Below are positions 8,869 through 21,351 of a stretch of 64,000 nt of DNA, one piece after another; position 1 is the stretch's first letter, and every line of letters starts with the position of its first letter. The stretch is from Argonema antarcticum A004/B2. Lineage in GTDB: Bacteria; Cyanobacteriota; Cyanobacteriia; Cyanobacteriales; Aerosakkonemataceae. The stretch is taken from NCBI RefSeq assembly GCF_023333585.1, contig NZ_JAIQZN010000019.1:1-64000 (forward strand). Direction: 5' to 3'. The position numbers and the translations under genes were made by a program. The notes under the pieces are model-generated. The model was not told the DNA's origin. It ran no database searches and saw only the letters and a program-made list of their open reading frames with translations.

Positions 8869-9420
8869 CTATATCTTTTGGATTAAAAAAGAAACAATTA
8901 ATATTAATGTTTGACTATAAACATTAGCTATAAGAAGGCTTTTTGATTTGTTGCGCTCAAGATAATGGTCAATATTTTCTCGTTTAACAGTATTTTTTCT
9001 ACCAGAATCAGAGTTAAAAATAATTGCTTCGTCATTTTTACTGATTGAGTTTAAGTTCATTAAAAGCTCTAGGACTATAAATTCAATTAAAATAATTAAT
9101 AAAAATATTAATAAGCTGAATAACCATAAATCAAAAAACATTATAATTAACGGTAATCCTGATGAGGTAGCGAAATTACCAAACAGAATAAAAATTATCA
9201 ATTTCTTTTGCCAATCTAATGGAAGTAATGGGTGAAAACAAAAGAAAATTAACCAACCGACTATGGTAGAAATTAAGTTAAGAGATGCTGAATACTCTAT
9301 GCTAATTTTACGGGGTATAATCATTCTTTTTTGGATAATAAATGCTTCTACAGCGATCGCAATCAGCAAAAATAAAATTTGGAACATAATTGCCCGCAAA
9401 GGCAACACAGTTACCAGCAT
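8869..9420 (-). CDS. fraC: FraC-like filament integrity protein
   Basis: This 183-residue membrane protein has three strong hydrophobic helices in the first 115 residues (LPLRAIMFQILFLLIAIAVE, LNLISTIVGWLIFF, and a long one near 95-118). A charged cytoplasmic loop and a final C-terminal helix follow. The PLRAI-FQ-LFLLIAI-VEA start and LNL-S-IVGWLIFF match FraC as I recall it. FraC is a septal protein required to keep filaments whole. The start is supported by AAGGAGCATTT directly before the ATG. It is the first gene of the fraC-fraD-fraE operon. Confidence 0.8.
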   Translation of the reverse strand: MLVTVLPLRAIMFQILFLLIAIAVEAFIIQKRMIIPRKISIEYSASLNLISTIVGWLIFFCFHPLLPLDWQKKLIIFILFGNFATSSGLPLIIMFFDLWLFSLLIFLLIILIEFIVLELLMNLNSISKNDEAIIFNSDSGRKNTVKRENIDHYLERNKSKSLLIANVYSQTLILIVSFLIQKI

Positions 9421-9588
9421 AAATGCTCCTTGAAATCAAAAGGATTTGGGGTAATTTAAAATTTTAGATTTTAGATTGCCAATTTAATAAATCTCAAATC
9501 TAAAATTGTTTGGACTGTCATTTTCACGTAATCAATGACATCATTATCTATATAGTACTTATTCACCATAGGCTCGACTACTGAAAAT

Positions 9589-10722
9589 ATGACTAGAACC
9601 GGAATAGGCATTCGCACGGCTCAGATGCGTTTGGAACGTATAGTCGGACAAATCCACGTCTACGATGGCGTAGGTAAAGGAAAATCCAGAGCAGCTTTGG
9701 GGGTGGTTTTGCGATCGATCGGGCTAGGTATTAATGCAAAAACGCACAATAGAGTATTGCTACTGCGTTTTCTCAAAGGCCCAGGACGAATATATGATGA
9801 AGATGGAGCGATCGCAGCGTTACAGCAAGGCTTTCCCCATCTAATAGACCAAGTTCGCACAGGAAGAGCCGAATTTTTCGGGCCTGATGAAATTGTCCGC
9901 TTTGACAGACTAGAAGCGCAACGAGGTTGGGACGTAGCAAAAGGTGCGATCGCTTCCGGCTTGTATTCAGTCATCGTCTTAGACGAACTCAACCCACTGC
10001 TAGACTTAGGTTTGCTACCAGTCGATGAAGTTATCCATACCCTAAAGCATAAACCAGAGGAGTTGGAAATCATCGCCACAGGTAGAGCAGCACCGCCAGC
10101 ACTGCTTGCGATCGCAGATTTGCATTCGGAAATGAAACCCCACTACCATCCAATCGCCATAGAACAAGGAATCGAGGGTATAGAAATTTATACTGGTGCA
10201 GGTAAAGGAAAATCTACAAGCGCCTTGGGTAAAGCCTTGCAGGCGATCGGCAGAGGCATTAGTCAGGATCGGTCACACCGCGTTTTAATCTTACAATGGC
10301 TTAAAGGTGGCTCTGGCTATACAGAAGATGCTGCGATCGCCGCCTTGCAGCAAAGCTACCCCAATTTAGTCGATCATCAACGGTGTGGAGGGGATGCGAT
10401 CGTTTGGCGCGGACAGCAGCGAGAGATAGACTATGTAGAAGCAGAACGAGGCTGGGAAATTGCCAGAACTGCGATCGCCTCCGGTCTATACAAAACCATT
10501 ATCCTCGATGAACTCAATCCCACCGTTGACTTAGAACTACTACCCCAAGAACCGATCGTACAAGCACTCCTGCGTAAACCCCGCGATACCGAAATAATTA
10601 TCACAGGTCGATGCCTCAATACGCCTGCTTATTTTGACCTCGCTAGCGTTCACTCCGAAATGATTTGTCACAAGCACTATGCCGATAAAGGCGTAGAACT
10701 CAAACGAGGAGTAGATTTTTAA
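9589..10722 (+). CDS. tandem CobO/BtuR-like cob(I)alamin adenosyltransferase family protein
   Basis: The 377 residues form two homologous P-loop domains (about 17-190 and 195-372). Each has a Walker A of the CobO/BtuR type (DGVGKGKS at 26-33; TGAGKGKS at 202-209), a Walker B-like LDELNP strand and a final ATGR or ITGR loop. CobO-type enzymes transfer adenosine from ATP to corrinoid cobalt. Single-domain enzymes are about 200 residues and dimerise, so this is a covalent pseudo-dimer. The conserved His/Arg pattern of the active site is not complete, so another function is possible. Divergent from fraC; no cobalamin riboswitch was seen upstream. Confidence 0.8.
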   Translation: MTRTGIGIRTAQMRLERIVGQIHVYDGVGKGKSRAALGVVLRSIGLGINAKTHNRVLLLRFLKGPGRIYDEDGAIAALQQGFPHLIDQVRTGRAEFFGPDEIVRFDRLEAQRGWDVAKGAIASGLYSVIVLDELNPLLDLGLLPVDEVIHTLKHKPEELEIIATGRAAPPALLAIADLHSEMKPHYHPIAIEQGIEGIEIYTGAGKGKSTSALGKALQAIGRGISQDRSHRVLILQWLKGGSGYTEDAAIAALQQSYPNLVDHQRCGGDAIVWRGQQREIDYVEAERGWEIARTAIASGLYKTIILDELNPTVDLELLPQEPIVQALLRKPRDTEIIITGRCLNTPAYFDLASVHSEMICHKHYADKGVELKRGVDF

Positions 10723-10727
10723 TTATA

Positions 10728-10782
10728 GCTAGGGACTAGGGGCTAGGGGCTAGGGGCTAGGGAAGAGGGAAGAGGGAAGAGG
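10728..10782. repeat. heptanucleotide tandem repeats (GGGGCTA, GGGAAGA)
   Basis: About four GGGGCTA units are followed by GGGAAGA units. This is the cyanobacterial short tandemly repeated type. Related arrays occur at 14769-14824 and, on the other strand, at 52036-52100. Confidence 0.85.
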
Positions 10783-10869
10783 TTACTCCGTAAGGGATTA
10801 TGGACTTCATGTAACAGTTGGAGTTGGCTTAATCGCCCTGGCGGTTGCTATAGTTTTGGGTTATAAACT

Positions 10870-10898
10870 AAAAAAATCCCTGGCTGCAAGCCAGGGAG
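10870..10898 (-). terminator. Rho-independent terminator of the PEP-CTERM gene
   Basis: A GC-rich hairpin (CCCTGGCT / AGCCAGGG, loop GCA area) is followed on the minus strand by seven T. It lies about 45 bp past the stop of 10941-11783. Confidence 0.8.
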
Positions 10899-10940
10899 AT
10901 TTTAGTTCGCTTCATGAACTAAAAAATTGCCTTTTCTAGC

Positions 10941-11783
10941 TCAAGCGTCGTTACTTTTATTTGGCACAGCCAAAAGCGTCAGCTTGGCATTTTGTTGGCG
11001 TTGACGTTTCAACATTAAACCGATACCGCACAAGCCAAATACTAACAGACCGCTCACCGTATCTGGTTCGGGCACCTTCGTCGGCTCGACAGATTCTACC
11101 ATAACCACCAAGTCATTAAAGTCGCTGTCGGAATTACCACCTACACGCAACAAATCCTCAAAAGCAATGATAAACTCGTTATCTGTAAATGTCCCCGCGC
11201 TCTTACCGGGAATCTGAAGTTTAGTCTGATTGTTGCCCTGATAAACCACAGCCTGTTGAGAGCCGTTCTGGTTGCGGCCATTCTCAGTATAGAAAACTTG
11301 GCCGTCTTGTCTTTCTAAGTAAAAACCGAAAACGTTGCCAAAGTCCTCATAGTCTGCCGAAGTAAGGTTTCCCGTGTAACCTGGTAAAAAACCCTTGGTG
11401 ATCACCGAGAGGTCGCCGTCGTTGTAGCTCACCAAAGCTTGATCCGACACATCATTAGCGCCGCCAAAAAGTTGAGCTTTGACGCCGCTTGAATTGTATA
11501 TCCCGAACTTATTAGTGGAGGCAAAACCTGCAATCTCGAACATGAAGGTGGCTACAGATCCGCCACTGGCAGTGTTCGTGAACAGATCGTAACCTGTTTG
11601 ACCTCCTACTGTATCGATGTTTGGCCCACTTTTAGTGAGGTTGTTCAACTGCTCTTGGAGCGATTTACCTGGCCCATCGGAAGAAGTACCGAAACTAACG
11701 GCTCCCGCTGAAGCGCCGGAAGAGATCGTTGTGCCTAGAGCGATACACGCTATTGCTGCCGTCTGAGTCAAGAATTTTTTCAT
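10941..11783 (-). CDS. secreted DUF4114 protein with PEP-CTERM sorting tail
   Basis: The 280-residue protein begins with a signal peptide (KKFLTQTAAIACIALG, cleavage near ASA-GAV). A DUF4114-like segment follows (FEDLLRVGGNSDSDFNDLVV, with the acidic DSDFND calcium-type motif). It ends with VPEPDT, a hydrophobic helix and the basic KRQRQ tail, the PEP-CTERM signal handled by exosortase and typical of envelope or extracellular proteins. The start at 11783 is chosen because AGAGGAAG lies just before it; an upstream Met at 11819 would bury the signal peptide. A terminator follows at 10870-10898. Substrate or partner is unknown. Confidence 0.85.
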   Translation of the reverse strand: MKKFLTQTAAIACIALGTTISSGASAGAVSFGTSSDGPGKSLQEQLNNLTKSGPNIDTVGGQTGYDLFTNTASGGSVATFMFEIAGFASTNKFGIYNSSGVKAQLFGGANDVSDQALVSYNDGDLSVITKGFLPGYTGNLTSADYEDFGNVFGFYLERQDGQVFYTENGRNQNGSQQAVVYQGNNQTKLQIPGKSAGTFTDNEFIIAFEDLLRVGGNSDSDFNDLVVMVESVEPTKVPEPDTVSGLLVFGLCGIGLMLKRQRQQNAKLTLLAVPNKSNDA

Positions 11784-12083
11784 AACTTCCTCTGGTTTTT
11801 TAAACGAAATTTGGAACATGGCGATCGCACTTATTCTGATTCGGCAAACGCCATCACCGTAGATCCCACATCAGTAAAATCAAGTGCTTTAACTAAGAAT
11901 CAAAACGAAATAGACCTTTTTCGGAGCGAACACCCAGATTATACGGAACGCTTGACCATATATTTATAAGTCAAAACTGTTATTGCCTACGTTTTTATGC
12001 GTGTATCTGGTTCGCTCTCTCCTATTTAGATTAACCTCACCGTATTTATACTAGCACTACTTTACCGATCGACTTTACCCAGA

Positions 12084-14756
12084 CTAGGCGATCGCACTCC
12101 GCACTAAAATGACTGTGCAATTGCAACCGCGAGCGATCGCTTCTGGAATATTTCCTCTAATCGCCTGCTGCAACATCCCCTCCCGACTGGCACCCAAAAC
12201 AATCACATCGCATTGTTCCTTCTCGGCCAAATCGATCGCAGCCTCCGGGACAGAACGCCCGCAAACAGGTGCAATAATTACGGGACATCTGATTTTGCGG
12301 CGCAGAAAATGAGCGGCTTGTTCTAGCTCATCAGTATTTGATAGAGTTTGAGAAGGTAGAAAAACTTGAGTAAGTCTGATTTCACTGCGATCGGACAAAC
12401 TACACAAAGCAGGTAACAGTTGAATTGCTTGTTGAGCATTCGGGCCACCAGCCATCGGCACCAGCCACCGATTCCATTCGAGAGGAGAGTTTCTATGTAT
12501 ACTTTCTCCCATTCCAGGACTTCCCCACTCTCCCACTCCCCCACTCTCCCGCTCCCCTCCCAATTTCACCAGTATCACGTCGCAAGAAGCTTGGCGGATG
12601 ATTGTATCAACCACACTGCCGAAGATGCGGCCAGGGGTAGGCGGCTCCGCATTCCAGCCCATTACAATCAAATCTATATGTTCTTGTTTAATTGTTTCCA
12701 AAATCGCCTGAGCCGCATCGTGGGCAACCCTTACCTGCGTATGAACCGACAACCCCAACTGACGTCCCAAAATTTCCGCCTGACGCAGTAAACGACGGCT
12801 TTTGGCAGTCCGCACAGATGTTTCGGATGGAGAACTGTGGCGGGGTGCCAGCATTACTTGGAGACACTCTAATTCATAGTCCCGATTCAGAGCAATAGCA
12901 CCTGCCAATCGTAGCAGCGATGGTGCCGTTTGGGGATTAGCCAGAGGCACCAGCAAACGTCCTTTCCCCACAGCGGGCGATCGCGTTTGATACACTACAT
13001 AAGATATTTCCGGCCTAGAGGCTATCCCCTTACCTTCCATTTGGTCTGCCTCTGCCCGAATAATATCGGCACGAGTAATAATTCCAATCAGCTTTCGACC
13101 TTCAATCACTGGTAATCGGCTGAGTTGATATCGATTTAAAAGATAAAGTACATCTGCCAAAGAAGCTTTCGGGCCGATCGTCACTGGTTGCGCCGTCATA
13201 ATTTTTGACAGTGGTGTATTCCCCGATAACTGAAGTTGACCCATTTTGGCAAGGTCTGTCTGAGTGACAATGCCAATCAGCTTGCCATCGTCTACCACCG
13301 GAAAGCCACGATGATGAGAACGGGAGAATGCCTGCACAACTTCATCGAGAATCATTTGGCTACTTAGAGTCTCCACCCGTCGCTGCATCACATCTAGCGC
13401 TTTGATCTCTCCTAAAATTCCTCCTTTGGGCGTTTCTTTGTCTAAATAAATGCCATTCCACTCCAGCAATTGGTCATAAAGAGATCTGGGCGCGATCATT
13501 TCAGCGACTAAATAAGAGGTCACCGAGGCAATCATTAACGGTAGCACCAGATCGAAATTGGTTGTCATCTCAAACACGATCACGATCGCTGTAATCGGCA
13601 CCTTGGAAACCGCGCTAAAAAAGGCTCCCATTCCCGCTAACGCATAGGTAATTGGTGTACCCAATCCCAGGAAATGGCTTGCTAGAAGTCCCACCAGATA
13701 ACCCAAAGCCGACCCCAAAATTAAAGAGGGAGCGAACAATCCTCCCGGTGCTAAGGAGCCAAAGGCAATTAGCGTTAAAATGAACTGAGCTGCAAAAGCG
13801 ATCGCCGCCATCTGCCAAGTAGCATCGCCGTTGAGCAAAAACTCTCGCAGTCCCGTGTTATCCCGAAAGCTATCCGGCAAAAGCGCGATCGCCATTCCAG
13901 AAACCAGCCCTGCCAGCCCGATTCGCCAAGGCAACCCTATACGGATAGTACGTTTGTAGAAAGCCAGACTGACAAAAATACCGCGACAAAACAGCGCCCC
14001 AAAGATACCAGCCAATATTCCCAACACCAAATAACAGGGAATCTCTGGCATAGAAAAGCTAATTTGAACCGCAGTAGAACCCAGGTCTGGGCCGAAGCTT
14101 TGGGAAGAATTGAGATTTAGGCTGCGACCGCCTAACAGCCGGGAAACTACCGCACCGATAAAGGAAGCCAAGATAGCAGTGCCAAGGGTGAAGCCAGAGA
14201 CATCGTGTAAAAGTTCTTCTACCACAAACAGGACACCTGCTAGAGGTGCGTTGAAAGCAGCAGCCAATCCAGCACCCGCACCAGCAGCAATCATCTGGCG
14301 TCGGTGATCCGGGGAAGTGGGAAGCCAGCGACTGAGTTGAGCCGCCAATGCAGCCCCCACCTGTACGGTTGGCCCTTGCCGCCCTACTGTTAGGCCCGAA
14401 CCCAGCGCGATCGTGCTGCTGACTAACTTTACAAATGCGACCCGCCAAGAAAGTTCTATGGGCACTCCAGCGAGTGCAGCTTTGACGTTAGGAATACCGG
14501 AACCTGCCGCTTCCGGTGCTAGGCGTTCTACCAGTAAGCCCGCTGCGAAACCAAAGCAAAGTCCGATCGCCGGTAGTACTAAGTAGGGCGGGTAATTGGA
14601 GGAGATCTGAACCCTCATGGTTCCCAATGTACCCACCCCAACTTTCAGCAAGACTGATGCCAAACCTGCAACTAAACCAATTAAGCAAGCTTCTGCGATC
14701 GCCAGTCGTCGTCTGGGCCGCAATATCTGCCGTAGGCGCTTCGGGATAGTGGGCAT
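12084..14756 (-). CDS. ClC-type chloride channel/transporter with CBS pair and two USP domains
   Basis: The protein has 890 residues. The ClC membrane domain (about 20-430) has GSGIPNVK (86-93), GRQGPTVQ (125-132), the PLAGVLFVVEE proton-glutamate region, GGLFAPS and a C-terminal RSLYDQLLE with the conserved Tyr. In most transporters the second motif is GREGP; here the gating Glu is Gln127 (codon CAA). Two CBS domains follow (about 450-575), then two universal-stress-protein domains (about 597-735 and 760-888). The USP linker is encoded by a heptad repeat (12521-12560). The gene is monocistronic, divergent from purM. The missing gating Glu suggests altered or uncoupled chloride flux, which is inference. 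Confidence 0.9.
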   Translation of the reverse strand: MPTIPKRLRQILRPRRRLAIAEACLIGLVAGLASVLLKVGVGTLGTMRVQISSNYPPYLVLPAIGLCFGFAAGLLVERLAPEAAGSGIPNVKAALAGVPIELSWRVAFVKLVSSTIALGSGLTVGRQGPTVQVGAALAAQLSRWLPTSPDHRRQMIAAGAGAGLAAAFNAPLAGVLFVVEELLHDVSGFTLGTAILASFIGAVVSRLLGGRSLNLNSSQSFGPDLGSTAVQISFSMPEIPCYLVLGILAGIFGALFCRGIFVSLAFYKRTIRIGLPWRIGLAGLVSGMAIALLPDSFRDNTGLREFLLNGDATWQMAAIAFAAQFILTLIAFGSLAPGGLFAPSLILGSALGYLVGLLASHFLGLGTPITYALAGMGAFFSAVSKVPITAIVIVFEMTTNFDLVLPLMIASVTSYLVAEMIAPRSLYDQLLEWNGIYLDKETPKGGILGEIKALDVMQRRVETLSSQMILDEVVQAFSRSHHRGFPVVDDGKLIGIVTQTDLAKMGQLQLSGNTPLSKIMTAQPVTIGPKASLADVLYLLNRYQLSRLPVIEGRKLIGIITRADIIRAEADQMEGKGIASRPEISYVVYQTRSPAVGKGRLLVPLANPQTAPSLLRLAGAIALNRDYELECLQVMLAPRHSSPSETSVRTAKSRRLLRQAEILGRQLGLSVHTQVRVAHDAAQAILETIKQEHIDLIVMGWNAEPPTPGRIFGSVVDTIIRQASCDVILVKLGGERESGGVGEWGSPGMGESIHRNSPLEWNRWLVPMAGGPNAQQAIQLLPALCSLSDRSEIRLTQVFLPSQTLSNTDELEQAAHFLRRKIRCPVIIAPVCGRSVPEAAIDLAEKEQCDVIVLGASREGMLQQAIRGNIPEAIARGCNCTVILVRSAIA
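12521..12560. repeat. CCCACTC-type heptad repeat inside the ClC gene
   Basis: Degenerate units of CCCCACT and CCCACTC encode the linker GERESGGVGEWGSPGMGE between the two USP domains. The same kind of repeat is intergenic elsewhere, for example at 16009-16031. Confidence 0.75.
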
Positions 14757-14947: not shown

Positions 14948-15976
14948 ATGGATTATCGAGAAGCAGGTGTTGATGTTGAAGCGGGTCGTGCTTTTGTGGA
15001 GCAAATCCGCAACTTGGTGCATCGCACCCATAGACCTGAAGTGATCGGCGGACTGGGTGGCTTCAGCGGTTACTTTCAGTTGCCGGGGGGGTTTAAGGAA
15101 CCTGTTTTGGTTTCAGGTACAGATGGCGTTGGCACGAAGCTAAAACTGGCTCATGACCTCAACCGTCATAATACAGTTGGGATTGATTTGGTGGCGATGT
15201 GTGTGAACGATGTTCTGACATCCGGGGCAGAACCTCTGTTTTTTCTGGACTATTTAGCTACTGGGGAACTCAATCAAGCGGAACTGACCCAAGTGGTTGC
15301 CGGTATTTCTGAGGGATGTCAGCTGGCTGGCTGTACGCTGTTGGGAGGCGAGACGGCTGAAATGCCTGGATTTTATCCAGCGGGTGTGTACGATCTAGCT
15401 GGGTTTTGTGTAGGCATTGTAGAAAGGAGTCAGCTGCTCGATCGATCTCAGGTGCAAGTTGGGGATATTGCGATCGGGCTAGCTTCTTCTGGTGTCCACA
15501 GTAACGGTTTTAGTTTGATTCGCAAAATTGTCGATCGCTATAAATTAAGCTGGACCGATCGTCCAGAATTGTTGGGGGGCCAAAGCTTAGGGGAAGTTTT
15601 GCTGACGCCTACTCAAATTTACGTTAAGCCGGTTCTCGCCGCACTCACCGCCGGTCTTCAAATTCATGGTATGGCTCATGTAACTGGTGGGGGATTGCCA
15701 GAAAATTTACCCCGCTGTCTGGCTGAAGGCCAATCTATCCAGATTGACACTAGCACTTGGCCGCTTCCACCTATTTTTGACTGGATAGCTGCCGCTGGTG
15801 AGGTTAGTCCAAATGCTATGTTTAACACTTTCAACATGGGAATTGGATATATGTTGTTGGTGCCACCAGACGAAGCTAGTCAAGCTATCAACTGGTTTTC
15901 GTCCCATAATATACCCGCTTTTGCGATCGGTCACGCGATCGCTGGAGAGGGTGGCGTCCTCGGCCTACCAGATTAA
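14948..15976 (+). CDS. purM: phosphoribosylformylglycinamidine cyclo-ligase (AIR synthetase)
   Basis: This 342-residue enzyme of purine synthesis closes the imidazole ring of FGAM, using ATP, to give AIR in the cytoplasm. The family features are clear: [11 protein letters not shown] start, [21 protein letters not shown] (the Gly/Asp-rich loop), the [21 protein letters not shown] segment in the order VAMCVNDV then [10 protein letters not shown], and [11 protein letters not shown]. The length is normal for PurM. It is a core gene, and the fossil transposon island begins about 60 bp after its stop. Confidence 0.97.
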
Positions 15977-16037: not shown

Positions 16038-16362
16038 CCAGGATATACGGGGTCAAATGTACAAAAAAGACCAGAAGATGCGGAAAAATCAGCTTGCCTG
16101 ACGCTACGACAGTTAGAGCAGTATTTAGTCCGTTATATCGTTGACAACTACAACCAACGAATTGATGCTCGTATGGGCGACCGAACAAGGTTTCAACGGT
16201 GGGAATCTGGTCTGCTAGCTGTGCCACCTTTAATTGCAGAAAGAGATTTTGGATATCTACTTAATGAAGCAGTCTAGGCGAACGATTCAAAGGGGTGGCT
16301 ACTTACAATTTGAAAACTTGATGTATCGTGGTGAATATTTGGCAGGTTACGCCGGGGAAAGT
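16038..16362 (+). pseudogene. tnsB: tnsB fragment (type V-K CAST transposase)
   Basis: The translated frame gives PGYTGSNVQKRPEDAEKSA, LRQLEQYLVRYIVDNYNQ, DARMGDRTRFQRWESGL. After a one-base insertion at about 16263 it continues MKQSRRTIQRGGYLQFENLM and YRGEYLAGYAGES. This is the end of the integrase core and the beta-barrel region of the Tn7-like TnsB of cyanobacterial type V-K CRISPR-associated transposons (such as the Scytonema hofmannii element), recognised from memory. About 108 codons remain of roughly 580. The N-terminus, catalytic DDE residues and C-terminus are missing. It joins directly to tniQ by deletion. Confidence 0.85.
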
Positions 16363-16363
16363 G

Positions 16364-16615
16364 GGGATGAAGTTGGAACCGATTCGGCTGTGTGGGGCTT
16401 GTTATGCTGAGTCCCCTTGCCATAAGATTGAGTGGCAGTTTAAGACAACAACGGGGTGCGATCGGCATGGGTTGAGGTTGCTCTCTGAGTGTCCCAAGTG
16501 TGGGGCGAGATTTAAGGTGCCGGCGCTTTGGGTGGATGGGTAGTGTCAGAGCTGTTTTATGACATTTGCTGAGATGTTAAAGTATCAGAAGCCTATAGAA
16601 ATATTAAAAGAATAA
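16364..16615 (+). pseudogene. tniQ: tniQ fragment (type V-K CAST), nonsense-mutated
   Basis: The frame starts GMKLEPIRLCGACYAESPCH and continues KIEWQFKTTTGCDRHGLRLL, then ECPKCGARFKVPALWVDG. These are the zinc-finger repeats of the short TniQ of V-K CAST elements. A TAG at 16541 stands where Trp is expected. The frame continues past it as CQSCFMTFAEMLKYQKPI to a natural stop at 16613-16615. The N-terminal half is missing because a deletion joins tnsB to tniQ, in a different frame, within GAAAGTGGGGATG. Not functional. Confidence 0.85.
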
Positions 16616-16729
16616 ATTTGGCTTGCTGATATATCTACCAATTTAGATGAAGTTATTTTGCAATTACTTTACAAGCTAAACTTAGCTAATTTAGTATAGA
16701 TACTGATTAAGTAATTGCGAGTTTTGGAT

Positions 16730-17425
16730 CTATACTGAAGATGTATTAGTAGGAACTGAAGCAATTATTTTTAATAGTAAATGGTGACAACGAAATTCAG
16801 CAGGATATGATTTTCCTGATGGAACTACCCGCTGGTGATCTGAGGTTTTGTGGTCACGGTTTGGAAAATCTGGATGCTCGCTTAATGTGCATGGTACTTT
16901 GCTTGCAATATTGGTAAAAGCTTTGTTTGAATCACCAGAAAAAAGATAACCTAGCATTCCTCCTTGACTAGAAAATGGTGCATATCGGCAAGTTATAAAA
17001 TTTTCATTTATCTCTTTTATATATTCACCTACTGCCCCATCTGTTTTCAAAACCTTAGCTTCTAAAGGCCAGATAATCCTCTCATTAGAGATTAGATAAA
17101 ATGCAATATCATATTGTGGTGGTTGCGCTTGTGCTGATTGACTACTTTCTATTTCATAGACTTCATGTTGAACATCAAATGGCTCATCCCCCGTCATATT
17201 TTTGCGAATTCTGCGCTCAAGAGATTGAGTGATGCTCCTTTCTAACTGCTCCTCATTTCCATCAAAATTAATTTGTGATAAAAACTCAGAAACCAGCAAA
17301 TCATAGCCTTCCCAAACAAGTTTTATCAAAATTGATATTGCATCAGGATTCCATACTTTTGCTAATTCCACAAAATTACCTGTAATTGGATATCTCTTAT
17401 TAAAAATGTTTCCTTTTCTAGCCAC
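16730..17425 (-). CDS. PD-(D/E)XK nuclease-like partner of the methyltransferase
   Basis: The protein has about 231 residues. A QYDIAFYL strand followed by IIWPLEAKVLKTDG gives the D...ExK core of PD-(D/E)XK nucleases. The rest matches nothing I recognise. The start is taken as the GTG at 17425, which overlaps the methyltransferase stop (GTGGCTAG) and gives MARKGNIFNK; an ATG frame extends seven codons further upstream. The tight overlap indicates one restriction-modification-like unit, with this gene the likely cleavage subunit. It sits in the cargo position of the fossil transposon. Target specificity is unknown. Confidence 0.7.
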   Translation of the reverse strand: MARKGNIFNKRYPITGNFVELAKVWNPDAISILIKLVWEGYDLLVSEFLSQINFDGNEEQLERSITQSLERRIRKNMTGDEPFDVQHEVYEIESSQSAQAQPPQYDIAFYLISNERIIWPLEAKVLKTDGAVGEYIKEINENFITCRYAPFSSQGGMLGYLFSGDSNKAFTNIASKVPCTLSEHPDFPNRDHKTSDHQRVVPSGKSYPAEFRCHHLLLKIIASVPTNTSSV

Positions 17426-20400
17426 TATACAACTCCTCCATAACATCTGATTCTATATCAAATGTTGTCCGCCATGTCATAATATCTGCGGCTACTTCAT
17501 CAGCATCTCTTAAAGCCATAGAGCGAGTCCAATAACGAACTTTGTCAGGTTTGATTAAATAAATAGTAGGAATTTTTACTCCATTCAATTCTACAGAATC
17601 ATAAATCCTGGCAACACACTGATAAAAGATGCCGCCGTCTTCTATATTTCCTCTTTCCAGATACAACTGATTTAGGTTCTCCAAGCGTTCCAGTAAATCA
17701 GGGGAGTCAATAGGTTCGATATATACTCCTTTACAGTTAGGTCTATTAAGATAAATTGCAACTAAACGGACAGGAAGAAGAGTCTTAGTTTGTTCCTGAA
17801 ATATGGTGGCACAAACTTGTTTATCTTGTCCAAATCCTGCTTTAAGAACTCGCAAAAAATACTCACAATATGCCGTAAGTTCAGGTTCAGTATTATTCTG
17901 AGATTGACTATTATCTATACGGTGAGTTCTTTTGCGTCCTGGAGAAGCACCATCTCCTTTAAAATCTGGCACAGTGTAATTAAATAGATCATTAATTAGC
18001 ACCCATTCACTATCTTTAAATTCAAAAGCTTGTCGTATGCGCGCATCTATATCATCAATTGTTTTTATATTCTGCAAATCTCCTACCGATAATTCAGGTA
18101 TTGGCACACGCAGTAAATCATCTACATTAACTTTAGGAATATATCCAGAAAATGAACCACTTGAAAGCAGTAGATAGTAGACAGCTAACTTACTGTTGTA
18201 TACTAGACAAGCAGCATTCAATAGTGAAGTATACTCTTCAGGAATATGTATGCTCACATAACTTTCAGAGCAGATAATTCCTTGATTTGTACTATTAGGA
18301 TTAACTATTGCTGAACAAAATCTACCGCTTTTTTTCTGCCAACTTTGCTTTACAATCATTTGTGGCAATTGAAATGCAGATAGGCTACTTAAACCAGTAC
18401 CAGAGTCAATGTATGGATCATTATTTATAGGAAGTATTTTAGCGTTTAGGTAAAGAAAACTTTGGTTCGGAAATTTGGTTGATTTCAAAATTCGTTTATT
18501 CACTACATCATTTTGTAATTTTCTTCTATTACCTCTTTTTACTCCTTGACGGGTCTTAGCAATGCTACGGGATTCAAGTTTGTCAATACTTAATTCTTGA
18601 TTCAATCTTCTGACCAAGGATAGATCACGTCTCCCTCCCCACATTAAAGCTGTCCAAACTAATGGATCTGCGATCGCCTCTTGTGGGTAAATTGTATTAA
18701 CATTGTGTGGCTCAATTACTATATGATAGTCATCCTCATTAGTCATTAATGGTTTTGGACAGATGTATGTTAAAGGTTCACCGTCAGGATGTGTGACTGA
18801 CATTGTGATAACACAAGCTGGAGAAATAGCATCTTTGAAAAGTCCAAAACGCAATGCTGACAAATTAACTATCTCTTCAATTTTGAACTCTGAAAAGAGA
18901 GTTTTACGGAATTTCCTAGCAGGTTTATTTTGATTAAAAATCAAAGCCATTGCTGGTTGCATCATTGCGACCTGTCCACCAGATTTGGTTAAAGAAGCAG
19001 CTTTTGGTAGAAAGAAAAGAGCAATATTACCATAAGATGTATTCCATTTATTCCGATTTTCAGGTCTATTCTTCCAAGAATCTATGTATAAAGATTTCTT
19101 TATAGTATTTTTACCCCAAGGTGCATTACCTACGACTAAATCATATTTACCAGCATCCTGAACAGAACGAAAACCTTCTTTTTCTTCTTCAAAAAAATCA
19201 GCAGCAATTAATTGACGTTGACGTAATCTAGGAAAGCGAAACTCATTCTCCCAATAATCTTGAGGTTCAACTTTATCTAGCATGGTTAAATAAAGACTAA
19301 AAGATGCTACTCTTACTGCTTGAGCATCTACATCAACACCAAATAAATTATTTTCTAGTAAATTTTTTAAATCACTTGGCTGAATTGTTTTTGGATGAGC
19401 TTGTTCCCATCTATGAATTAAACGCTGAAATGCTTTAACCAGAAAAATTCCTGAACCACAAGCAGGATCAAGAATCTTGATATCCCATTCTTGACTATCC
19501 CAAGGTAAAACACCATCTAGGACAAAATCAACTATATGTTCTGGTGTGTAATGAACTCCTGTGCCAGATTCTTTACTAACAAACTCCTCATATATACTGC
19601 TAATAAACTCCAAAGGTATAACGTCAAAATGGTAGTATGGCCATAAACTTAATTGTCCAGTTTCAATGTCTACATGACCACTAACAAAATAAGCCAGTAT
19701 ATTTAAGTGAGTTCCTTTAACTTTTTGTTCTTCTGTTTGCCATTCTGCTTCACGTTCTTCTTTGGTAGCTCCTTTACCTGGGAATAAATCACCATTGAAC
19801 TTGCTATTAAGCCAACGAAAAAATTTATAAGTATCTCTATGATTTCTTAATATGTCAGCTAAATGAGAGTATTTAGCCGATAATTCCCCAATTCTATATA
19901 AATGATCTAGTAAATTTTCATTTAAAGCAGGATTACCTTCAGCTTCTTGACGGTCAAAAAGGAATTGAATGAAAATAATTCTTGCTAATAAATCATGAAT
20001 TGTATCATCATCAAGTTCATTTTTTTGAAGTATTTTCCTAACACTTTTCAGATTTTTCAATAGCATCTGGTCAGCGGCTTGTTTTCGTTGAAATCGCTGG
20101 CTATGTTCTTGAAAAAATTGACCTGATACTAAATCAGCCCAGTGTAACCGCAAAGTTTCAGCAGCTTGACCTGAAAGAGACACCTGATTAAATGACTCTA
20201 TTTCCCGTTTAGAAACGTTAACTACAGGATTGATAATATCATCTTCTTTTGGAGGTTCTTCGTAGCACGTCCAAATTCTTAAGCGATTAGGTTCTGTTGT
20301 AATTAGTGATGGTGTACGAGAAAAACTCCAAGCAAGTTGATAAGTTTTCCTCAGTGTTTCTTCTGATATTTCTGTGGGAAAGTCACACACCAGAGCAATA

Positions 20401-20612
20401 GGTGTTTCTGTCGAGTCACCTTGAGGATTTGCCGACAGCACGCCTATTTGCACACCATCACCACCTGAAAGTTTGCTGATAGTTCTACCTAATTTTTCCC
20501 TAGCGATTCGTGCATAAACACTTGGACCAGCACCAGATGGCTCCAAAATTTCTTGTGGAGTTGGCCAGTGAAGCTTTTCATGTGCTAGTTCAAGTAGTCC
20601 AGACTGTGACAT
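17418..20612 (-). CDS. N6-adenine DNA methyltransferase, Eco57I/type IIG-like
   Basis: The protein has 1064 residues. The N-terminal region (about 1-200) is alpha/beta and may hold a nuclease-like or accessory domain. Residues 352-357 read GVHYTP, the usual lead-in to gamma-type MTases. Motif I is LDPACGSGIFLV (381-392) and motif IV is NAPW (496-499), a variant of NPPY/NPPW. The C-terminal half is a probable target-recognition region (about 700-900) plus a unique tail. It methylates adenine in a specific DNA sequence and is paired with a nuclease-like gene that overlaps its stop. Related large enzymes occur in type IIG, DISARM and BREX systems, but no companion genes of those are here. Confidence 0.85.
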   Translation of the reverse strand: MSQSGLLELAHEKLHWPTPQEILEPSGAGPSVYARIAREKLGRTISKLSGGDGVQIGVLSANPQGDSTETPIALVCDFPTEISEETLRKTYQLAWSFSRTPSLITTEPNRLRIWTCYEEPPKEDDIINPVVNVSKREIESFNQVSLSGQAAETLRLHWADLVSGQFFQEHSQRFQRKQAADQMLLKNLKSVRKILQKNELDDDTIHDLLARIIFIQFLFDRQEAEGNPALNENLLDHLYRIGELSAKYSHLADILRNHRDTYKFFRWLNSKFNGDLFPGKGATKEEREAEWQTEEQKVKGTHLNILAYFVSGHVDIETGQLSLWPYYHFDVIPLEFISSIYEEFVSKESGTGVHYTPEHIVDFVLDGVLPWDSQEWDIKILDPACGSGIFLVKAFQRLIHRWEQAHPKTIQPSDLKNLLENNLFGVDVDAQAVRVASFSLYLTMLDKVEPQDYWENEFRFPRLRQRQLIAADFFEEEKEGFRSVQDAGKYDLVVGNAPWGKNTIKKSLYIDSWKNRPENRNKWNTSYGNIALFFLPKAASLTKSGGQVAMMQPAMALIFNQNKPARKFRKTLFSEFKIEEIVNLSALRFGLFKDAISPACVITMSVTHPDGEPLTYICPKPLMTNEDDYHIVIEPHNVNTIYPQEAIADPLVWTALMWGGRRDLSLVRRLNQELSIDKLESRSIAKTRQGVKRGNRRKLQNDVVNKRILKSTKFPNQSFLYLNAKILPINNDPYIDSGTGLSSLSAFQLPQMIVKQSWQKKSGRFCSAIVNPNSTNQGIICSESYVSIHIPEEYTSLLNAACLVYNSKLAVYYLLLSSGSFSGYIPKVNVDDLLRVPIPELSVGDLQNIKTIDDIDARIRQAFEFKDSEWVLINDLFNYTVPDFKGDGASPGRKRTHRIDNSQSQNNTEPELTAYCEYFLRVLKAGFGQDKQVCATIFQEQTKTLLPVRLVAIYLNRPNCKGVYIEPIDSPDLLERLENLNQLYLERGNIEDGGIFYQCVARIYDSVELNGVKIPTIYLIKPDKVRYWTRSMALRDADEVAADIMTWRTTFDIESDVMEELYSG

Positions 20613-20700
20613 TCCGTTTTTTACGCTGCATTAAAGTATAGTTTCACATTTCAACCATCACACTGATAATCACAATATACAATATCGTGCGACTTTAGTA
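20613..20700. promoter_or_regulatory. AT-rich upstream region of the R-M unit
   Basis: This non-coding stretch lies directly before the methyltransferase. It presumably carries its promoter, but no clear -35/-10 pair was defined. Confidence 0.3.
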
Positions 20701-20820
20701 TTAATCTCCCAATCTACTAATTAACCTTTGATAAATAATATCCAACCACACTGGAATCACAGGCTTACCTTCCACTACGTAAGCGATCGCACTCTCCCTC
20801 TCAAACTCTACCACTTGGAG
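20701..20820 (-). pseudogene. C-terminal fragment duplicated from the neighbouring 20834 gene
   Basis: The minus-strand frame reads LQVVEFERESAIAYVVEGKP then VIPVWLDIIYQRLIS and stops at 20701. It parallels KLVEFDGEKVVAAWAEGKFV-VPVWLDVIYGR of the gene just upstream. Only about 38 codons remain, so this is the tail of a second, diverged copy. Confidence 0.7.
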
Positions 20821-20833
20821 CGATCGCGCTCTA

Positions 20834-21100
20834 CTACTTCACCCTCTCACGCGATCGCCCATAAATCACATCCAACCACACCGGCACAACAAACTTACCC
20901 TCAGCCCAAGCTGCTACTACCTTCTCCCCATCGAACTCTACCAACTTAGCCGCTCCTTCCTGTGATTCTTTGACAAAAATTAACCGCTTTGGCGCTCGAT
21001 CGCTCAAAAGCCCCGGATACTGCTCCTTAAGCGTCTTCAGCACCTCCCGTGCCACCTCAAAGGTAAAACGCCAATAAACCATCGCCCCTAATTCCAGCAA
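20834..21100 (-). CDS. hypothetical protein, 5' end uncertain
   Basis: From a TTG at 21100 the protein has 88 residues. The frame is open back to a TAG at 21197-21199 and reads plausible protein upstream (VVVPAIAETGTGRSIYYSEG), but no ATG, GTG or TTG precedes that part. The gene may be 5'-truncated or use an unusual start. The body (GAMVYWRFTFEVAREVLKTL, VVPVWLDVIYG) matches no family I can name. It lies between the R-M cargo and the transposon terminus, next to a duplicated tail fragment. Confidence 0.5.
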   Translation of the reverse strand: MLELGAMVYWRFTFEVAREVLKTLKEQYPGLLSDRAPKRLIFVKESQEGAAKLVEFDGEKVVAAWAEGKFVVPVWLDVIYGRSRERVK

Positions 21101-21219
21101 ATTTCCCTCAGAGTAGTAAATACTCCTCCCCGTCCCCGTTTCCGCGATCGCAGGGACAACAACGCCAATACTGCGACTGAAGTAACGTACAGCCCGCTAT
21201 CTCCGCCGCCCGATGGACT

Positions 21220-21273
21220 TGTCCGTGTTGACAATAATCTGTCAACACGGACAAATAACTTGACATTATACAA
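21220..21273 (-). mobile_element. type V-K CAST-like transposon terminus
   Basis: Read on the minus strand from 21273, the sequence begins TGTATAATGTCAAGTTAT, then TGTCCGTGTTGACAGATTAT and TGTCAACACGGACA. This follows the published end of the Scytonema CAST (TGTACAGTGACAAATTAT..., TGTC...GTGACAGATTA, as remembered) at most positions: TGTA terminus, then TGTC/GACA-type TnsB-binding repeats. It ends 7 bp from the 3' end of tRNA-Cys, the usual kind of V-K insertion site. The core also forms a perfect 14-bp inverted repeat (21211-21254 region: TGTCCGTGTTGACA with TGTCAACACGGACA). Confidence 0.7.
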
Positions 21274-21280
21274 CTTTAAA

Positions 21281-21351
<71 letters not shown>

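Follow-up and report, generated by a model that had tools for sequence, protein, structure and literature searches.

A degraded type V-K CRISPR-associated transposon around an uninterrupted restriction-modification pair beside tRNA-Cys in Argonema antarcticum

The window analyzed here, 64,000 nucleotides of a contig of Argonema antarcticum A004/B2, carries pieces of CRISPR-associated transposon (CAST) genes together with an uninterrupted restriction-modification (R-M) pair. They fill the interval from just past purM (14948-15976, forward strand; 342 aa, frame open) up to a tRNA-Cys gene (21280-21351, reverse strand). Nearest to purM, on the forward strand, lies a tnsB remnant (16038-16362) that corresponds to ShTnsB residues 336-443 in two frames; its first 335 codons and roughly the last 135 are missing. 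A PDB search matched 16041-16274 to ShTnsB 337-409 (E 1.4e-30) and, in the shifted frame, 16246-16365 to ShTnsB 406-443 (E 1.3e-16). It is followed on the same strand by the C-terminal zinc-finger part of tniQ (16361-16594), of which 16355-16540 matched ShTniQ 90-149 at E 1.6e-27. In PADLOC the V-K models were the top matches, TnsB_0_V-K at E 9.4e-30 and TniQ_0_V-K at E 7.2e-30, both to fragments only. With V-K proteins matched at E values between 1e-16 and 1e-30, and in the order tnsB then tniQ, this homology is not a matter of chance. An earlier note on this DNA had read the region as the fossil of a type V-K CAST in which tnsB and tniQ codons lie head to tail, interrupted by a frameshift and a nonsense codon, and the order of the ShTnsB and ShTniQ matches and the V-K proteins that head both searches bear this out.

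The disruptions themselves can be placed precisely. The nonsense TAG in tniQ occupies 16541-16543 (forward strand), exactly where it had been reported. The frameshift in tnsB exists but lies about 13 nt to the left of the reported position 16263, in a run of T at 16247-16250 (forward strand) that, judged by eye, is one T longer than in relatives. The junction between the two genes falls, as claimed, inside GAAAGTGGGGATG (16357-16369, forward strand), where GTG alone is common to both parents when compared by eye with locus L034 of Microcoleus vaginatus HSN003, a microhomology of 3 nt. Relatives that have the order tnsB-tnsC-tniQ imply the internal deletion that the note had proposed, fusing tnsB to tniQ with loss of tnsC, and the sequence missing at the join amounts to 1,537 nt relative to locus L033 and 1,504 nt relative to L034. 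More than this one deletion is needed, however, since tnsB codons 1-335, cas12k and the tracrRNA are lost as well. That the loss was fairly recent, as the note also held, is weakly supported by private changes in the tnsB/tniQ relic, of which 10 are synonymous and 9 non-synonymous, compared with 13 and 10 in L033, whose frames are open, all of these being small counts. We considered relaxed selection in the remnant and rejected it on the same small counts, which contain no excess of non-synonymous changes. As a separate observation, L034 holds a second TniQ fragment beside cvkR at 16056-16247 and no cas12k match in the 20-kb stretch analyzed.

The R-M pair occupies 16730-20612 without interruption. 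Its larger gene (17418-20612, reverse strand, frame open) encodes an Eco57I-type N6 methylase of 1064 aa, which PADLOC assigns to type IIG R-M (REase_MTase_IIG, E 8.5e-54) and Pfam to Eco57I (E 4.3e-24); domain searches reported no nuclease domain in this protein. The companion gene (16730-17446, reverse strand, frame open; 238 aa) is a candidate nuclease by motif only: D113, E129 and K131 are invariant in all eight close copies of the pair discussed below, and they form a candidate PD-(D/E)xK motif. The companion had no Pfam match, its best hit in a PDB profile search (E 0.85) is not credible, and its predicted model, with a mean pLDDT of 40.7, is too poor for use. The cargo block as a whole (16692-20665) shares 91.2% DNA identity over 3979 aligned bases with positions 9000-12974 of locus L039, a CAST of Nostoc sp. 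NMS4, whereas the tnsB, tniQ and second cvkR pieces that neighbor it are 74-78% identical to L039. Synonymous divergence (dS) between the window and L039 is 0.16 for the methylase and 0.37 for the companion versus 1.6 for tnsB, the last over 74 codons and near saturation. This contrast argues that cargo and backbone have had different histories. Carriage of the methylase on plasmids was considered and rejected: among 72,556 plasmid records a single one matched it at E 1e-100 (Methylobacterium, 45.6% identical).

Beyond the cargo lie two CvkR fragments in tandem, both on the reverse strand. The one closer to tRNA-Cys (20834-21212) is 79-82% identical to CvkR of L034, has lost its N terminus and is disrupted in frame near 21162-21212; the other (20704-20830) is a C-terminal fragment whose nearest relative is CvkR of L039. 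The CvkR-/Arc-type regulator is thus represented at the locus by two fragments, and the adjoining cas12k is gone. Since one fragment is nearest L039 and the other nearest L034, two elements, or recombination between them, may have been at the site. Next to the tRNA gene we find a transposon end (21229-21272, reverse strand) that matches the tRNA-proximal ends of other V-K elements, at 84% identity in L098 and L039 and 77-78% in L037, L201 and L202; it was unmatched in L203, L205 and the two loci of congeneric genomes considered below. In L039 the match scores 44.0 bits, compared with at most 29.7 bits in 30 mononucleotide-shuffled sequences. This end, like the tracrRNA piece of the congeners, was first recognized by its likeness to ShCAST and was then checked by sequence comparison. 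Since the earlier note had overlooked the R-M cargo, both pieces of cvkR and the end beside tRNA-Cys, the fossil is larger than it had claimed.

The position of this end relative to tRNA-Cys fits a V-K insertion. Passages of PMC9938897 name the tRNA-proximal end LE and place it 46-82 nt from a GTN PAM; here the distance is 62 nt, measured to a PAM, AGTG, within tRNA-Cys. The element L037 of Nostoc sp. MG11, a CAST which also sits at tRNA-Cys and is itself degraded, with tnsC, tniQ and cas12k in pieces, carries beside a truncated repeat a 17-nt spacer that matches tRNA-Cys, and the matching stretch is 57 nt from that element's own end. The corresponding positions in the window are 21318-21334, and the exact 17-nt string is present in the window solely inside the tRNA. 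Because the anchor spacer is gone from the relic, a guided insertion is argued by analogy with L037. A search of the interval with the tRNA-proximal end as the only query returned no second end, a search that a divergent end could escape, and no target-site duplication was seen by eye; the left boundary is therefore not proven.

Taken as a whole, the purM-trnC locus is a CAST relic rather than a CAST, given that Cas12k has no match in this genome. TnsC is absent from the window, and the rest of the genome gives a single weak match to it (a 501-aa frame, E 1.5e-5). Eleven stretches downstream of cas12k, used as queries, gave no tracrRNA match in the interval, and no array-like repeat family was seen there, the two longest-shared families reflecting the tandem CvkR fragments. 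The relic resembles the type V-K elements ShCAST and AnCAST in its TnsB, TniQ and CvkR sequence, its tRNA-proximal end, its tRNA attachment gene, its PAM-to-end distance and the position of R-M cargo between tniQ and cvkR; it differs from them in having no whole transposition gene and only one end found, and in that Cas12k, tracrRNA, CRISPR array and anchor spacer were not found in it. The comparison of the purM-trnC interval among related genomes that the note had proposed gave an empty site in two family members, in which purM is followed almost directly by tRNA-Cys, and degraded CAST parts in both congeners. The two empty sites come from five stretches fetched from other genera; the remaining three contained no tRNA-Cys.

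Based on these features we consider it highly probable that the locus is a dead V-K CAST beside tRNA-Cys that decayed by deletions while its R-M cargo was kept. The element would have inserted beside tRNA-Cys, most likely through the usual anchor guide. One deletion would then have removed tnsB codons 1-335 together with the tnsB-side end, another the 3' part of tnsB, tnsC and the 5' part of tniQ, and another the 5' end of cvkR along with cas12k, the tracrRNA, the array and the anchor; their number and order may have differed from this scheme. The R-M pair, whose frames are open, is most likely still functional, in host defense, as an addiction module or as both, and selection on it would account for the persistence of the island while the transposon genes decayed. 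What remains cannot transpose by itself, and since one end alone was found it probably cannot be mobilized in trans either.

A search with the methylase in 386 genomes of the phylum at 1e-50 gave 18 matches. Besides this genome they comprise six with identities of 77-86%, a single one at 58% and ten that do not exceed 32%. We define eight close copies, comprising the window, L039 and the six fetched loci at 77-86% (L201-L206); L207, at 58%, is not a close copy. What is new is that six of the eight have CAST parts nearby (the window, L039, L201, L202, L203 and L205), that all eight have both R-M frames uninterrupted, and that each of the six CASTs lacks a whole copy of at least one of tnsB, tnsC, tniQ, cvkR and cas12k. 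Pairwise dN/dS of the methylase is below 1 in all 28 pairs of the eight copies (0.23-0.41), a comparison among copies that does not show selection after the death of the CAST in this lineage. Survival of the R-M pair is partly built into the sample, because the R-M gene or the window was the route by which seven of the eight loci entered it, L039 being the exception, and the decay of the transposons is scored solely among CASTs with this R-M pair. In L203 and L205 the search flagged one TAG in the methylase; the frames, of 1,047 and 1,046 aa, have no internal stops, and we take the TAG to be the probable end codon, 17-18 residues ahead of the end of the window copy. L207 runs counter to the pattern, with one TAG, a methylase in two pieces and a partial companion; no CAST part was found near it.

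The six CASTs differ in how much of them survives. L039, at tRNA-Arg, shares with the relic the R-M pair, its order and orientation and a similar transposon end, and differs in its tRNA and in the open frames of tnsB, tnsC, tniQ and cvkR; a stop interrupts its cas12k at codon 111, and 48 residues are missing from it. The sequence downstream of that cas12k gave no tracrRNA match to the relic of the congeners. In L202 tnsC is the single broken core gene, and the other four are scraps, L205 retaining as its sole CAST part found the first 55-57 codons of cas12k. L201, at tRNA-Thr, resembles the relic in having a tRNA, a transposon end, the 3' part of cvkR, the open R-M pair and the 3' part of tniQ, and differs in its tRNA, family and break points and in that tnsB was not found. 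The window and L201 relics may have decayed independently, which fits a methylase dS that is higher between these two (0.24) than between the window and L039 (0.16).

The strongest competing explanation is that the R-M genes form an independent island that arrived alone beside unrelated CAST scraps. No CAST part was found in the vicinity of two of the eight close copies, L206 and L204 (the latter close to a contig edge), and the dS of the R-M block against L039, far below that of tnsB over its 74 near-saturated codons, indicates that the block at some time moved apart from its backbone. The other six copies are CAST-linked, however; five of these stretches include a tRNA gene, for Cys, Arg (twice), Thr or Pro, and four (the window, L039, L201 and L202) have the pair between tniQ and cvkR sequence in one and the same relative orientation, so that we regard an independent arrival as unlikely. 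Incidentally, the pair in L206 (7941-11811) lies between permease-like and ClpC-like genes, as read from their translations. A second alternative, that the locus is a minimal non-autonomous element still mobile in trans, draws on the one bona fide transposon end that is kept, but this end used as a query found no partner and the genome encodes neither Cas12k nor any TnsC candidate beyond the weak match mentioned above, which makes such mobility very improbable. Finally, although the genome is a draft of 249 contigs, we give hardly any credence to the idea that chimeric assembly of an intact CAST produced the tnsB-tniQ join, given that a frame change, a nonsense codon, a broken cvkR and a missing cas12k coincide in one locus and that two congeners have degraded CAST remnants at the corresponding position.

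We therefore return to a dead V-K CAST with retained cargo as our preferred reading; the relic illustrates what such an element can leave behind, which is its cargo rather than the transposon. The dS of 0.16 for the cargo methylase against 1.6 for tnsB points to cargo exchange between CAST backbones. More broadly, it is conceivable, though we would not call it probable, that V-K CASTs deliver addictive R-M cassettes, that their transposition genes are lost in parallel after homing to tRNA genes while selection keeps the R-M pair, that R-M islands beside cyanobacterial tRNA genes are often the corpses of CASTs, and that cargo can be swapped between backbones. Degenerated Cas12k and frequent R-M cargo are mentioned in passages of PMC9938897; cargo that outlives V-K CASTs did not appear in the titles and abstracts returned by our literature searches. 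With relics that hold one R-M pair near tRNA-Cys, tRNA-Thr and tRNA-Arg, the role of R-M in retaining dead elements becomes testable, and it is the R-M cargo, recurrent and uninterrupted, that merits follow-up.

V-K relics of this sort are common, and this locus is one of many. Within the 386 genomes of the phylum sample, Cas12k was found in 41 and V-K TniQ matches at 1e-5 in 49, with both in 37, Cas12k only in four and TniQ only in 12, this genome included. All 12 of the latter have partial TniQ matches, and 12 of 49 is an upper figure, as TniQ of other types may account for some of the short, weak matches. In one search Cas12k was present in four of ten genomes of the family and in none of the three of the genus.

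In the two other genomes of the genus (G001 and G002) the purM-trnC site is filled by different sequence, 7 to 8.4 kb long, including a type III R-M pair (ResIII and N6_N4_Mtase by Pfam) and Fic-, Uma2- and PIN-like genes named from translations only. The type III stretch covers L083 2652-10845 in G001 and L082 11701-18565 in G002. Both genomes also have a scrap of 26 TnsB codons beside purM, a CvkR C terminus and, next to tRNA-Cys, a 3' part of a tracrRNA, which matches eight of the 11 stretches downstream of cas12k at 70-86% identity (best 86% over 179 nt). This tracrRNA piece lies beside the CvkR remnant, at about 11180-11350 of L083 and equivalently in L082, in genomes without a Cas12k match. 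Between G001 and G002 the synonymous divergence of res and mod (0.26 and 0.37) exceeds that of purM (0.10), which suggests exchange. One old insertion common to the three congeners was considered and is not established, as the cvkR piece diverges more than two other genes: between A. antarcticum and G001, 10 of 53 synonymous sites differ in the cvkR piece, versus 21 of 249 in purM (Fisher p 0.04) and 15 of 361 in the AAA gene (p 0.0004). This excess, and the sequences adjoining the tRNA, which differ between A. antarcticum and the congeners, make a second insertion or recombination possible. Elsewhere in G001, a genome without a Cas12k match, there is a second CvkR-like gene (L096; contig C85, 2046-2465) that is 43% identical to the query.
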